Positions 33,143 through 39,232 of a stretch of DNA of 64,000 nt are shown here, in pieces. The DNA is from an uncultured Acholeplasmatales bacterium (lineage in GTDB: Bacteria > Bacillota_I > Bacilli_A > Acholeplasmatales > Anaeroplasmataceae). The stretch spans positions 62,001 to 126,000 of the forward strand of contig CALUXS010000002.1 of NCBI GenBank assembly GCA_944324805.1, written 5' to 3'. The stretch's first letter is position 1. Every line of letters starts with the position of its first letter. The notes under the pieces were generated by a model. It did not search any database, was not told where the DNA came from, and worked only from the letters and a program-made list of their open reading frames with translations. Position numbers and translations under genes: made by a program.

Positions 33143-34471
33143 ATGAGTTTAAGATTTTATAATTCTTTGACTAATAAAGTAGAAGAATTTATTCCTAATA
33201 ATGAAAAAGAAGTTAAAATGTATGTTTGTGGACCAACAGTTTATAACTATATTCATATAGGAAATGCTAGACCAGTTGTTTTTTATGATTTAGTAAAAAG
33301 ATATTTAGAATTTTTAGGTTATAAAGTAACATACGCTTCTAATATTACAGACGTTGATGATAAAATAATTAACAAGGCTATTGAGGAAAATAAAACAGAA
33401 AAAGAGATTGCTTCTTTTTATGAAAATGCATATTTTGATGCTGTTAATAAATTAGGTTCGAAAAGACCTGATTTAGTTCCTCATGCTACAGATTATATTA
33501 ATGAAATGCAAACATTCATTCAAAGCTTAGAAGAAAAAGGCTATGCATATAATGTTGATGGAAATGTGTATTTTAGAATAAGTAAAATTGATGATTATGG
33601 CTGCTTATCAAATCAAGCAAAGGAAGAATTGACTGAAGGTGCTAGAGTTGATGTTGATTTAGCTAAGGAAAATCCATTGGATTTTACTCTTTGGAAAAAA
33701 ACTGATGCTGGTATAAAGTGGGATTCTCCTTTTGGATTAGGTCGTCCTGGTTGGCATACAGAATGTGTTGTTATGAATCATAAACTTTTTGGAGATTCAA
33801 TTGATATTCATGGTGGAGGTATGGATTTGAAATTCCCTCATCACGAAAATGAAATTGCTCAAAGCGAAGCACTTTATCATAATCACCTTGCTAAGTATTG
33901 GCTACATGTAGGAAGAGTTGATTTAAAGGGCGTAAAAATGAGTAAATCATTAGGCAATGTTATTTATGTAAAGGATCTTAATACAGCAAAGGATTATATG
34001 GTTTTAAGAATGCTATTATTATTCTCACCATATAGATCAATAATTAACTATAGTGAAGAATTACAAGGACAATACTCTAAGTTATATGACAAGTGGCAAA
34101 GAGCCTTGAAGCAAACTAAATATTTTTTAGAAGCTAATGATATTAAAACATTAAATGTTAATGAAGAAATAATTGAACGTTTTAAAGAATATATGGATAA
34201 TGATTTTAACGTACAAAATGTTTTAATGCTAATGGAAGAATTAGTAAAAGAAATAAATCAAAATTATCGTTCAAAGGATTATGAGAAGCTTGCATTAAAT
34301 GTTAATACTTTTGTTAAGCTACTTGATGTATTAGGAATTGATTTTAGTCTTCAAGAATTAACTCCAGAAATGAAGGAAATCTATCATTTGTGGGATGTTG
34401 CACGTGCAAATAAAGACTTTGCAAATGCTGACAAGTATAGAGTTATGTTAGTAGAAAAAGGAATTTTATAA
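33143..34471 (+). CDS. cysS: cysteinyl-tRNA synthetase
   Basis: The 442-residue class I enzyme charges tRNA-Cys. Seen: CGPTVYNYIHIGNARP with the HIGH-type HIGN and a zinc-ligand Cys, GRPGWHTECVVM and FPHHENEIAQSE with the remaining zinc ligands, and KMSKS at about residue 265. ATG 33143 is placed 4 bases after AGGTGAT; GTG 33134 would overlap that site. First gene of a cluster ordered as in Bacillus (cysS-mrnC-rlmB-sigH-rpmG-secE-nusG). The stop overlaps mrnC (TAATG). Confidence 0.97.
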   Translation: MSLRFYNSLTNKVEEFIPNNEKEVKMYVCGPTVYNYIHIGNARPVVFYDLVKRYLEFLGYKVTYASNITDVDDKIINKAIEENKTEKEIASFYENAYFDAVNKLGSKRPDLVPHATDYINEMQTFIQSLEEKGYAYNVDGNVYFRISKIDDYGCLSNQAKEELTEGARVDVDLAKENPLDFTLWKKTDAGIKWDSPFGLGRPGWHTECVVMNHKLFGDSIDIHGGGMDLKFPHHENEIAQSEALYHNHLAKYWLHVGRVDLKGVKMSKSLGNVIYVKDLNTAKDYMVLRMLLLFSPYRSIINYSEELQGQYSKLYDKWQRALKQTKYFLEANDIKTLNVNEEIIERFKEYMDNDFNVQNVLMLMEELVKEINQNYRSKDYEKLALNVNTFVKLLDVLGIDFSLQELTPEMKEIYHLWDVARANKDFANADKYRVMLVEKGIL

Positions 34472-34863
34472 TGGAAATAAATCAATATAATGGTATGACA
34501 TTAGCTTATATTGGTGATGCAATATATGAATTATGCATAAGACAATATGTATTAAATTCTAATGAGACTAAGGTTAAGCAATTGCATAAAAAGGTAACTA
34601 AACTTGTTAATTCATCTGCTCAAGCAAAATTTATTCATTATTTATTAAATAAAAATATTCTTACAGATGAAGAAAAAAATATTTATTTACGAGGAAGGAA
34701 TGCAAAAGTTAATTCTAACCGCAAAAATGTTGATTTAGCGATATATCATGAGGCAACAGGATTTGAAGCTTTATGTGGATATTTGTATTTATTGAATAGG
34801 AAAGAAAGATTAGATTATATTATAAAGCTAATTTTAAGTGAGGAGGAAGAACATGGCTTTTAA
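34471..34863 (+). CDS. mrnC: mini-ribonuclease III
   Basis: The 130-residue protein is the stand-alone RNase III catalytic domain lacking a dsRNA-binding domain: LAYIGDAIYELCIRQYVL holds the signature acidic residues, and YLRGRNAKVNS is the conserved basic stretch. MrnC trims the ends of 23S rRNA precursors. Overlaps cysS by one base and the P-type ATPase gene by 11 bases. Gene order cysS-mrnC is the Bacillus order. Confidence 0.95.
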   Translation: MEINQYNGMTLAYIGDAIYELCIRQYVLNSNETKVKQLHKKVTKLVNSSAQAKFIHYLLNKNILTDEEKNIYLRGRNAKVNSNRKNVDLAIYHEATGFEALCGYLYLLNRKERLDYIIKLILSEEEEHGF

Positions 34864-37800
34864 GAAAAAGACAATTCTTAGCGAAGATGAAAATGTAATT
34901 GATGAAGAATTATCTGAAACTACTGAAGATCTTGTTGAAGAAAAATTAGAGGTAGAAGATAGTGAAGCTGAAGAAGAAACTAAGGTTAATGAAAAACTTG
35001 AAAAGTCTCTCTTAAAAAAACAAGCTAAGGAAGAAAAAAATAAGGAAAAGCAAAAAGAAAAGCTTAAAAAACAACGTTTAAAAGAAATAAAAAATGGCGG
35101 TAATGTAAATATTGTTCGCTACGAACCTGATATTAATGTTGGTTTAACAGATGAACAAGTTCAAAATCGTTTAGATGAAGAGCTTAATAATAAATCACAT
35201 ATGGGCTCAACTAAATCAATTAAAAAAATCATTTTTACTAATGTTTTTACCTTCTTTAATATTTTGACATTAGCAATTGCTGGCTGGTTAGTTTCTATTA
35301 AGGCATTTACTGATTTATTCTTTATGGTTATTGTTACTGCAAATGTTGTAATAGGAATTATCCAAGAAATTAAAGCTAAAAATATAATTGACAAGTTATC
35401 GCTTCTTTCTGCTCCTACAGCTAATGTAGTTAGAGAATCTAGTGAAAAGGAAATAGCTGTAACAGACATTGTTTTAGATGATATATTATTATTATCTTCA
35501 GGAAAGCAAATTCCATCTGATAGTATAGTTGTTGATGGTAGCGTAGAAGTTAATGAATCGCTATTAACAGGTGAAAGTGATGCGATAGTAAAGAAGCCTG
35601 GCGATACTTTATTTTCTGGTTCATTTGTTGTAAGTGGAACATGTAGAGCAAGAGTAGATAAGGTTGGTAAGGATAATTATATTGAGCAATTATCTTCAGA
35701 GGCTAAATTATATAAAAAGCCAAAGTCTGATTTATTACGCTCATTAAATATTATTATCTTAGTGATGGCTTTTATAATAATTCCTATTGGTGCTGTACTA
35801 TTTTATATGCAATTTGTTAGAAATGGTATAGACTATTATACAGCTGTTCGTAAAACAGCAGGTGCTATGATAGGTATGATTCCATCAGGATTATACTTGT
35901 TATCTTCAGTTGCTTTAGCAGTTGGTGTTATTAGATTAGCTCAAAACAAAGTAATGGTACAAGAGTTATATTGTATTGAAATGCTAGCGCGTGTAAATGT
36001 TTTATGTTTAGATAAAACAGGTACTATTACTGATGGAACAATGAGTGTTAAAAATATTATTGAGTTCAATAATGTTGCAGGTTTATCAACGAAAAATGTT
36101 ATAAGTGCTATGCTAAATGCACTTAATGAGAGTAATTTAACTTCAGTTGCATTAGAAGAAAAATTTGGTCGAGCGAAGCGAATAAAATATAAAGAGACAA
36201 TTCCTTTTTCTAGTCAAAGGAAGTTTAATGCCGTTACTTTTGAAAGATTAGGTACATTTATTTTGGGTGCTCCTGAATTTGTAATGAAGGATAAATATCC
36301 TACTGTAAAGAAGGAAGTTGAGCATTATGCATCATTAGGATATCGTGTTTTATTATTGGCTCATAAGGCTGGTAATATTGAAAATGGTGTATTACCAAAT
36401 GATCCAATCGAAGTAGTTTCAATGATTTTAATTGAAGACAATATTAGACCAGATGCAATTAAGACAATTAGTTACTTTAAGCAAAGTGGAGTTGAAGTTA
36501 AAGTAATTTCTGGTGATAATCCTTTAACAGTTTCTAAAATTAGTGAAAGAGCTGGTATTGAGAATGCTAGTGAATATATATCACTTGATGGAATGAAAGA
36601 CGAAGATGTTATTAGAGCTGCAACTAAATACACAGTATTTGGACGTGTCTCTCCTGCACAAAAGCGTCTATTAGTTAGAACTTTAAAGGAAGCTGGTAAG
36701 ACTGTCGCTATGACTGGTGATGGTGTTAATGATATTTTGGCTCTTAAGGAAGCTGATTGCTCTATAGCTGTCGCATCAGGTAGTGAGGCTGCTCGTAATG
36801 TTAGCCATCTAGTTTTACTAGATTCAAACTTTGATTCAATGCCAAAGGTTGTTGCTGAAGGTAGAAGAGTTATTAATAATGTTTCTGGTGTAGCTTGTTT
36901 GTTCTTAACTAAAACTATCTTTAGTTTCTTATTAGCAATTCAAGCAATTAATAGTGGTGGTGTTTATCCAATTAGTACTAATCAGTTGATTATGATTGAC
37001 TTTTTAGTTACTGGTATGCCTTCATTCTTCTTAGTACTTGAGCCTAATAATAAAGAGGTTGATGGTAGGTTTATTACGAATATTTTAAAAGGTGCGATTC
37101 CGGGTGCGGTGGCAATTCTTATATCTTCTTATCTAGCATTTGCTTTAGTTTCGTACCAGGGCTTAGATTTCTTAACTTCATCAACTATTATTGTTATAAT
37201 GGCAACTCACACATGTCTAATGGTATTATTTAAAGTATGTCGTCCGTTTAATTTATTACATAAGGCAATTTGCGGAACCTCTTATACTTTGTTTGTTTTA
37301 CTAATTATCTTTGCGCCAAATTTCTTTGAGTTTAGACCTATATTCAAATTTATGGAATATTACTCAGATAGTATAGTTACAAAATCTTTAGCTGAAACTC
37401 CAAGTATTGCAATTAGTGAAGATTGGTATTATGTATTAGATGGTCAGATGACTGATACTCCTGCTAAGGTTGATTCTACTCAATTTATTACTACCGCTTC
37501 TAGTGATGGTTATTTAATTATTGATGGTACACAAACTGAATGGAAGATTCCAACTCCAATTTTAAGTGCTGATGAAAATAACATTTTATACTTAAAAGGA
37601 TATGCAACAAATATTGCTAAGTTTGTTACTCCTGAAGTTGATTTAAGTTTAGACATTAAATCAGACGGAACTGTTACTATTAATAAGGTAGATGTTGCAA
37701 GTGGTCAAATAATCGGCCATTATGAAATTGCTGATTATACTATCTTACCTACTGTACGTTTAAATAATGATAAGATTGTCATAGCTGGATACAATTATGA

Positions 37801-38437
37801 CTTTGATGGAAAAGAAATAACAAGTATTGAGGCAATTAAAGAAGAAGATGGAACATATGTTCTAGGAATTAATGGTACAAAATTCCTTTATGCAACTGAT
37901 GATGGTAATATGGTCCCTTATAAATTAGATGTTCCAGCAATTAGTTATAACGCAGAAGATAAGATTGTTCTTGGTGGCGAAGCTACTCAATATAACATTA
38001 CTGAAGACTTGGGTGTTTCTGGTTTAGGTGAATTAACTGAAGAAGACATTACAATTAGAGGTAGTTCATATTTAGTTAAAGGTAAATCTACTAATTGTAC
38101 TATTGAGACTCCTGATATTGAAGCATCAGTTGCAGGTAGATATGTAATTGATGGTAGATACACTACCTTTGAAGCAGAACAAATTGGTGGAGATACTTCA
38201 ACTGAACTTAATTTTACAGAGGATGGCTACTTGACTATTAACAATGTAGTAACTGATTATAAGGTTAAGATTCAAGAGACAGTTGGAGGAACTGTACAAA
38301 GATTATCAATTCCTGCCTTACTTATTTTATTTACATTATGTTTACTTGCTTCTCCTTTAATGCGTTTATTACAATCTATTGTTCCTTGGATTAAAAGAGC
38401 ATATCATAATGTACAATATCTAATCTCAAAATTCTAA
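34853..38437 (+). CDS. P-type cation-transporting ATPase with large extracytoplasmic beta-repeat domain
   Basis: The 1194-residue protein has an acidic/Lys-rich N-terminal tail (about 1-85), actuator motif LLTGES (about 238-242), phosphorylation motif DKTGT at Asp387, and hinge MTGDGVND (620-627). TM4 reads IPSGLYLL (P344) rather than the PEGL of Ca2+ pumps, matching an uncharacterised branch; ion unknown. TM9 (about 805-828) and TM10 (about 1152-1174) are separated by some 320 residues containing about nine degenerate strands-with-turn repeats such as YLIIDGTQTEWKI, IVLGGEATQYNI, YLVKGKSTNCTI and YVIDGRYTTFEA, expected outside the cell. ATG 34853 with GAGGAGG upstream. It interrupts the otherwise conserved mrnC-rlmB junction. 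Confidence 0.9.
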   Translation: MAFKKKTILSEDENVIDEELSETTEDLVEEKLEVEDSEAEEETKVNEKLEKSLLKKQAKEEKNKEKQKEKLKKQRLKEIKNGGNVNIVRYEPDINVGLTDEQVQNRLDEELNNKSHMGSTKSIKKIIFTNVFTFFNILTLAIAGWLVSIKAFTDLFFMVIVTANVVIGIIQEIKAKNIIDKLSLLSAPTANVVRESSEKEIAVTDIVLDDILLLSSGKQIPSDSIVVDGSVEVNESLLTGESDAIVKKPGDTLFSGSFVVSGTCRARVDKVGKDNYIEQLSSEAKLYKKPKSDLLRSLNIIILVMAFIIIPIGAVLFYMQFVRNGIDYYTAVRKTAGAMIGMIPSGLYLLSSVALAVGVIRLAQNKVMVQELYCIEMLARVNVLCLDKTGTITDGTMSVKNIIEFNNVAGLSTKNVISAMLNALNESNLTSVALEEKFGRAKRIKYKETIPFSSQRKFNAVTFERLGTFILGAPEFVMKDKYPTVKKEVEHYASLGYRVLLLAHKAGNIENGVLPNDPIEVVSMILIEDNIRPDAIKTISYFKQSGVEVKVISGDNPLTVSKISERAGIENASEYISLDGMKDEDVIRAATKYTVFGRVSPAQKRLLVRTLKEAGKTVAMTGDGVNDILALKEADCSIAVASGSEAARNVSHLVLLDSNFDSMPKVVAEGRRVINNVSGVACLFLTKTIFSFLLAIQAINSGGVYPISTNQLIMIDFLVTGMPSFFLVLEPNNKEVDGRFITNILKGAIPGAVAILISSYLAFALVSYQGLDFLTSSTIIVIMATHTCLMVLFKVCRPFNLLHKAICGTSYTLFVLLIIFAPNFFEFRPIFKFMEYYSDSIVTKSLAETPSIAISEDWYYVLDGQMTDTPAKVDSTQFITTASSDGYLIIDGTQTEWKIPTPILSADENNILYLKGYATNIAKFVTPEVDLSLDIKSDGTVTINKVDVASGQIIGHYEIADYTILPTVRLNNDKIVIAGYNYDFDGKEITSIEAIKEEDGTYVLGINGTKFLYATDDGNMVPYKLDVPAISYNAEDKIVLGGEATQYNITEDLGVSGLGELTEEDITIRGSSYLVKGKSTNCTIETPDIEASVAGRYVIDGRYTTFEAEQIGGDTSTELNFTEDGYLTINNVVTDYKVKIQETVGGTVQRLSIPALLILFTLCLLASPLMRLLQSIVPWIKRAYHNVQYLISKF

Positions 38438-38502: not shown

Positions 38503-38533
38503 TTTTTTGAAAGATGTAGGAAGAGGTATCAAT

Positions 38534-39232
38534 ATGATTAAGATTTATGGTAAAAATTGTGTTACAGAGGCGATTAAAGCTAATGCTCCTATTAAGAAGC
38601 TTTTTTTCCTAAAGGATAATAATAAGGATGGCTATTTAAAGGACTTAGCTATAAAAAAGGGCATTGCCTTTGAAATGCAAACTAAAGAGTTCATGCAAAA
38701 AACATTTGGTAGCCATCATCAAGGTTATGGTGCATATCGTGAAGATTATAAAAACTATGATCTTAATTATGTGATAGATTTAGTAAAAAATAATAAGAGA
38801 GTTCTAATTTTAGATGGCGTTGCTGATCCACAAAATTTTGGAGCAATAATTAGAAGTGTAGATGCTTTTGGCTTTGATGCTATTGTGCTAGGTAATAATA
38901 GAAGTGTTCCGATTACTGAAGTTGTTGCTCATGTTTCTACAGGAGCTATTGAATATGTTCCAATTATCTATGTCAATAGTTTAAATACAGCTATTTTAAA
39001 ATTAAAGGAAGCAAATTTTTGGATTGTAGGAACTGATGCTTCAGCTAATATGCTCGTATCACAAATAGATAAAGATAGAAATTTAGCTATTATTATTGGC
39101 TCGGAAGGCTTTGGTATGTCAAAAACATTAGTTAAAGCTTCTGATTATATCGTGAAAATTCCTATGGTTGGACATGTTAATTCTCTTAATGCATCTGTAA
39201 GTGCTGGTATTTTATTAGCAAGTTTAATGTAA
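38534..39232 (+). CDS. rlmB: 23S rRNA (guanosine-2251-2'-O)-methyltransferase, SPOUT family
   Basis: The 232-residue TrmH-family enzyme has the N-terminal substrate-binding region (YGKNCVTEAIKANAPIKKLF) and the knotted SPOUT SAM-binding motifs ILDGVADPQNFGAIIRS, IIGSEGFGMS and IPMVGHVNSLNASVSAGI. It is the counterpart of Bacillus YacO. ATG 38534 follows GGAAGAGGT; the longer frame start is not supported by a ribosome site. The Bacillus neighbour yacP (NYN nuclease) is missing; the sigma factor gene follows by 11 bases. Confidence 0.93.
   Translation: MIKIYGKNCVTEAIKANAPIKKLFFLKDNNKDGYLKDLAIKKGIAFEMQTKEFMQKTFGSHHQGYGAYREDYKNYDLNYVIDLVKNNKRVLILDGVADPQNFGAIIRSVDAFGFDAIVLGNNRSVPITEVVAHVSTGAIEYVPIIYVNSLNTAILKLKEANFWIVGTDASANMLVSQIDKDRNLAIIIGSEGFGMSKTLVKASDYIVKIPMVGHVNSLNASVSAGILLASLM

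Follow-up and report, generated by a model that had tools for sequence, protein, structure and literature searches.

The window analysed here, a stretch of 64,000 nucleotides, carries on its forward strand a gene for a P6/CtpE-like P-type ATPase of 1194 aa (34853..38437, stop codon included). Judging by the sequence, the gene starts at the ATG at 34853, which is preceded by an AGGAGG-type ribosome binding site on the same strand (approximately 34841..34846); a GTG at 34838 was dropped in favour of this ATG with AGGAGG in front. Its neighbours, also on the forward strand, are an mrnC-like gene upstream (34471..34863), whose product we take to be mini-ribonuclease III and whose 3' end overlaps the ATPase start, and a downstream gene (38507..39232) for what is presumably an rlmB-like rRNA methyltransferase. 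With gene names that we assigned by recognising the sequences, the order cysS-mrnC-ATPase-rlmB-sigma-like-secE-nusG is the same around orthologs with a long and with a short TM9-TM10 loop. Since the gene is intact and syntenic in many genomes, we reject an assembly artefact or a chance open reading frame as its origin. The conserved neighbours of the ATPase are housekeeping genes, and no gene was found that would be a partner for the repeat array described below. The N-terminal cytoplasmic region (34853..35224, + strand) begins with about 85 strongly charged, K/E-rich residues (34853-35110), an extension that reaches up to ~180 aa in relatives.

A P6-like pump core

The pump core, TM1 to TM9, occupies 35225..37336 on the forward strand and contains TGES (35567), IPSGL in TM4 (35879), DKTGT (36011), GDGVND (36716), FLTK in TM5 (36902) and MIDFLVTG in TM6 (36992). 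Membership of the P-type ATPase superfamily is clear from the E1-E2 ATPase and HAD hydrolase domains (PF00122, 4e-43; PF00702, 5e-22; TIGR01494, 259 bits against a cut-off of 62.3) together with TGES, DKTGT and GDGVND. For none of the characterised transport classes (H+, Ca2+, Mg2+, K+, heavy metal) did the protein reach the NCBIfam cut-off, the best-scoring class being ATPase-IIIA_H with 261 bits against a cut-off of 615.5.

A P6 class, defined by PEGL in TM4 and by replacement of the TM6 Asp with Ile, has been proposed in a review for CtpE and its homologs (PMC10654040), and for CtpE of Mycobacterium, Ca2+ uptake and a VPEGL motif have been described (PMC5615198). Among the uncharacterised bacterial P-type ATPases these P6 ATPases make up family 23, for which Firmicutes and Tenericutes members have been reported (PMC5615198, PMC10654040). 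The TM6 Asp of Ca2+ pumps is replaced in all 14 sequences that we compared, by Thr in the window protein, by Ile in most and by Val or Leu in some. In TM4, however, the window protein and most of its order have IPSGL rather than PEGL; a second long-loop family (f19, see below) has PAGL, and PEGL is found in other members of the phylum that share the pump core. Relative to the Ca2+ ligands of SERCA, the window pump has E309 replaced by S, N768 by T, E771 by S, N796 by D, T799 by V and D800 by T, while a TM5 Lys that aligns with SERCA S767 is also present in the PEGL-bearing relatives. Given a replaced TM6 Asp alongside IPSGL in TM4, we call the pump P6-like, meaning either a member of the P6 (CtpE-like) ATPases or a closely related variant, and make no claim to a Ca2+ substrate; the comparison with CtpE is by description, the core tree having placed relatives from within the phylum only.

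Like CtpE, the window pump is a ten-helix HAD pump without the TM6 Asp of Ca2+ pumps, but CtpE has ~791 aa and VPEGL, whereas the window pump has IPSGL and ~320 residues between TM9 and TM10. It shares domain order and motifs with the SERCA and LMCA1 Ca2+ pumps, from which it differs in the substituted Ca2+ ligands; its closest solved relatives by sequence are the lmo0841 entries. Across the P6-like pumps of the phylum, the TM4 motif varies (PEGL, PSGL, PAGL, PLGL, PRGL), and this variation beside a fixed TM5 Lys suggests that the transported ion may have been altered.

An outward insert between TM9 and TM10

The 1194-aa protein has exactly ten hydropathy peaks of at least 1.35, the final two at aa 813-831 and 1151-1169. 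Between TM9 and TM10 the hydropathy maximum is 0.56, so that no hidden helix is present, and the chain leaves the membrane for ~320 residues (aa ~830-1149; window ~37340-38299). Hydropathy and the ten helices thus agree with the preliminary description, which had noted such an excursion at 37400-38310; its start was set slightly late, while its end fits. As an annotated feature the insert covers aa 825-1149 (37325..38299, + strand), including the last residues of TM9, and is followed by TM10 (core aa 1151-1169) with a positively charged cytoplasmic tail (38303..38434, + strand).

Because TM9 begins on the cytoplasmic side, the ~320-residue segment lies outside the cell. Its composition is acidic, with 52 acidic and 23 basic residues (net charge about -29; -11 to -41 in relatives), and the TM8-TM9 loop and the C-terminal tail are basic; hydropathy and charge therefore both place the segment outside rather than in the cytoplasm. 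The remaining outside loops of the pump have 4-15 residues. No standard ATPase-family domain covers the segment in Pfam, NCBIfam or PDB, and the array had no match in Pfam, NCBIfam, PHROGs or PDB sequences.

The insert is an array of degenerate hairpin units

The insert consists of about ten degenerate beta-hairpin units of ~25 residues each. The six motifs quoted in the preliminary description were all found, at aa 860, 887, 1038, 1073, 1097 and 1126 (window positions 37430, 37511, 37964, 38069, 38141 and 38228); of its nine degenerate units the repeats themselves hold, though the count is nearer ten, with four or five strong. A matrix for a unit of 21 residues, with the inserts of another bacterial family (f19) as its sole training set, scored the window array at z=9.9, a value equalled by none of 300 shuffles, and gave z=2.5-12 over 31 homologs of the window's family, at least 3.9 in 30 of the 31 arrays.

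All units lie on the forward strand. The array opens with unit 1 (IAISEDWYYVLDGQMTDTPAK, 37406..37468, matrix score 18.8 bits), unit 2 (TTASSDGYLIIDGTQTEWKIP, 37490..37552, score 5.7) and unit 3 (LSADENNILYLKGYATNIAKF, 37562..37624, score 8.6). Three weak units follow: unit 4 (LDIKSDGTVTINKVD, 37631..37693, score -11.9), placed on predicted strands, unit 5 (PTVRLNNDKIVIAGYNYDFDG, 37748..37810), assigned by eye, and unit 6 (AIKEEDGTYVLGINGTKFLYA, 37832..37894, score -10.7). Unit 7 (ISYNAEDKIVLGGEATQYNIT, 37940..38002, score -6.9) draws on structure prediction, and the weak unit 8 (DITIRGSSYLVKGKSTNCTIE, 38045..38107) is a predicted hairpin assigned by eye. Unit 9 (IEASVAGRYVIDGRYTTFEAE, 38117..38179, score 6.6) and unit 10 (LNFTEDGYLTINNVVTDYKVK, 38207..38269, score 16.9) complete the array. 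Conservation in the array is highest in the units closest to the membrane, and a GGxV motif before TM10 is conserved as well.

An AlphaFold model of the array, of moderate confidence (pLDDT 71, pTM 0.58), shows a row of short hairpins at the units. The full-length model is poor (pTM 0.34), so its use was limited to secondary structure, as a loose check. No known global fold for the array model was found in PDB or viral structures; the fold matches obtained there, apparent beta-propellers included, were rejected with TM-scores near 0.1.

Long and short orthologs share one locus

The pump core was found in 152 of the 160 genomes of the window's order, many of the comparison genomes being fragmentary assemblies. 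The array profile matched 49 genomes of the order, all in the window's family, from which 54 genomes were searched. Eight relatives in named metagenome-assembled genomes, mostly labelled Acholeplasmatales/Anaeroplasmataceae, all carry an array, of 304-398 aa. Orthologs outside the family mostly have 780-935 aa and a short loop, and one member of the family itself (G142) has the short TM9-TM10 loop FDFTPFFAIPGSDFVPLELSS, in which the empty insertion site is visible.

The array diverges faster than the rest of the protein, with 41-43% identity among close relatives against ~75% for the core, and its length spans ~270 to ~490 aa, with little change in the core or in the remaining outside loops. 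Nonetheless, 23 columns are invariant across nine aligned arrays. In the core TM helices, long and short orthologs are conserved about as well as the long ones are among themselves.

A few sequences were set aside when forms were assigned. G126 was rejected as a short form, its frame running off the contig, and two proteins were rejected as long forms: G021 (1017 aa), with its extra length in an N-terminal extension, and G047 (1065 aa), with its extra length in an in-frame run-on into rlmB-like sequence. The latter (L054/L073) reads ATPase and rlmB-like sequence in one frame, possibly a fusion of neighbouring genes. In another genome (G157, L063/L075) the ATPase is tandemly duplicated at the syntenic locus.

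A second occurrence in the class

A survey of the class identified f19, a family belonging to another order, with ORFs of 1149-1184 aa (G320, G391, G350, G262) in which the extra residues also lie between TM9 and TM10; fragments from G385 and G315 have the insert there as well. The f19 units are clearer than those of the window (GYWxINGxxTxIKA; e.g. GYWIINGIETNVKA) and number up to eight per insert, and a third family of the class (G214) has about two. In a core tree built without the insert, the long forms of the window's family and of f19 are separate, and an AU test covering these two long groups, on a tree that left out G047, rejected a single clade of long forms (p-AU 7e-5). The insert thus has at least two separate occurrences in related bacteria; strictly, the tree would fit either independent gains or an ancient single gain that was then lost many times. 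Among the matches listed for the phylum sample there was no further P6-like ORF above 1000 aa, and the open literature searched contained no report of large TM9-TM10 inserts.

Kinship with surface-protein repeats

Profile-profile comparison linked the array of the window's family to the f19 insert (probability 96.7, E 3.4e-10, values somewhat inflated by repetition). The f19 insert in turn matched Pfam DUF4988 (PF16378; 28.7 bits, E 1.3e-6, with a second f19 match at 5e-4), as did a lipoprotein from the window's own genome (E 6e-5), all matches seen staying under the curated cut-off of 30 bits. The window array follows the unit pattern of these f19 inserts and shares with DUF4988 the pattern G-[YW]-W-x-[IL]-N-G-x-x-T-x-[IV]-x-A; it differs in having no match to the PF16378 model and in that its units sit inside a pump. 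The window units thus resemble DUF4988, and the repeat type as such is already known.

The lipoprotein just mentioned has a signal peptide and carries the array-type unit together with Flg_new repeats (L157; G000, contig C11, ~52928): it shows two WY[IV]DGVDT units, and repeats of the collagen-flanked type besides. The unit also occurs on lipoproteins and amidase-like proteins in other genomes. This presence on secreted proteins supports the outside location independently, and from hydropathy with its ten helices, charge and this kinship we conclude that the insert is extracytoplasmic. Topology and charge, hairpin prediction and the secreted lipoprotein of the same genome together bear out the earlier suggestion of a beta-repeat ectodomain on an ion pump.

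Further proteins with the unit deserve mention in their own right. In four f19 proteins (L136, L141, L144, L150), presumably amidase-like going by their motifs, the unit is embedded in the enzyme region, much as the array is inserted in the pump. An open frame in G133 (L139/L151, contig C4, ~69443-73510), reported as 12,480 aa and with an array-type unit, is probably a giant surface protein.

Possible roles of the array

Binding to the cell wall had been among the suggested functions. The window's genome (G000) and its sisters G119 and G122 lack MraY and the PF00905 penicillin-binding transpeptidase and keep the array, while both genes are present elsewhere in the family (G137, G115, G110, G116, G142); array-bearing genomes occur among walled and wall-gene-less members alike. 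Since the array is retained in genomes without peptidoglycan-synthesis genes, wall binding does not hold as its general role. The absence of MraY and transpeptidase from the window's genus, and their presence elsewhere in the family, amount to wall loss within the family.

The role that we consider most likely, ahead of gating and with about even confidence, is that the pump carries the array as a surface-exposed tether or as an appendage for binding. A cation pump of the P6 (CtpE-like) type, chromosomal and otherwise ordinary, has gained, in its outward TM9-TM10 loop, a ~ten-unit beta-hairpin array of the type that bacteria of this class use in secreted surface proteins. Exposed in this way, the array may bind or organise glycans, other surface proteins or host matrix, which would position or anchor the pump, while ions would be transported just as they are by orthologs with a short loop. 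In known ten-helix, SERCA-like pumps TM9-TM10 is remote from the route of the ions, and the loop would therefore be a permissive site for a passenger domain. The moderate fold model, the housekeeping neighbours and the position of the best-conserved units nearest the membrane speak against an appendage, and the strong conservation of those units could reflect contact with the pump. On the other hand, core helices and other outside loops that are unchanged in the presence of the array argue against tight coupling. This bears on the idea, raised in the preliminary description, of a sensor or gate in which pump activity responds to a ligand or to ions that the array binds outside. In favour of this, the array is covalently part of the pump, its negative charge could gather cations, and the membrane-proximal units and GGxV are conserved; yet TM4-TM6 and the other outside loops show no matching change between long and short orthologs, array length varies freely, and no ligand-binding domain was recognised in the database searches described above. 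We regard gating as unlikely, and a receptor through which an outside ligand or ion switches the P6-like pump, with one-protein sensor-pumps having evolved more than once, as the most doubtful of the readings considered.

Outside beta-type subunits are attached to the P-type pump in the Na,K-ATPase, CDC50 and KdpC systems (PMC10654040), and by analogy the array might be a built-in beta subunit that acts from outside in the stabilisation or maturation of the pump. The likeness lies in the outside mass on a P-type pump, and conserved units adjoining the membrane and retention in nearly all of the window's family are in keeping with it; but those partners are separate subunits, whereas here the insert is in frame and without sequence similarity to beta subunits, syntenic short orthologs do without it, and the short remaining outside loops offer little for docking. 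We consider this improbable, slightly more so than gating. A near-neutral expansion, in which repeats grew in a permissive loop with no specific function, would account for the degenerate units, the rapid divergence, the wide range of array lengths and the two-unit version in another family. It has to contend with an array that nearly all genomes of the family keep in an intact frame, with the invariant columns, and with long forms in at least two separate groups, and it too seems unlikely, if marginally less so than the other alternatives.

Significance

The usual picture of a bacterial P-type pump is that of a bare ten-helix machine whose outside loops are short. With an array inserted in an outward loop, and again in related bacteria, the pump described here seems to serve at the same time as a protein exposed on the surface: walled and wall-less lineages have repeatedly acquired, at one loop, a large outside domain built of a surface-protein type of repeat. 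The findings flag a poorly known pump family with a TM4 motif unlike the Ca2+ signature and mark TM9-TM10 as a tolerant insertion site, and the long and short orthologs at one gene position constitute natural experiments on the effect of an outside domain on its pump.
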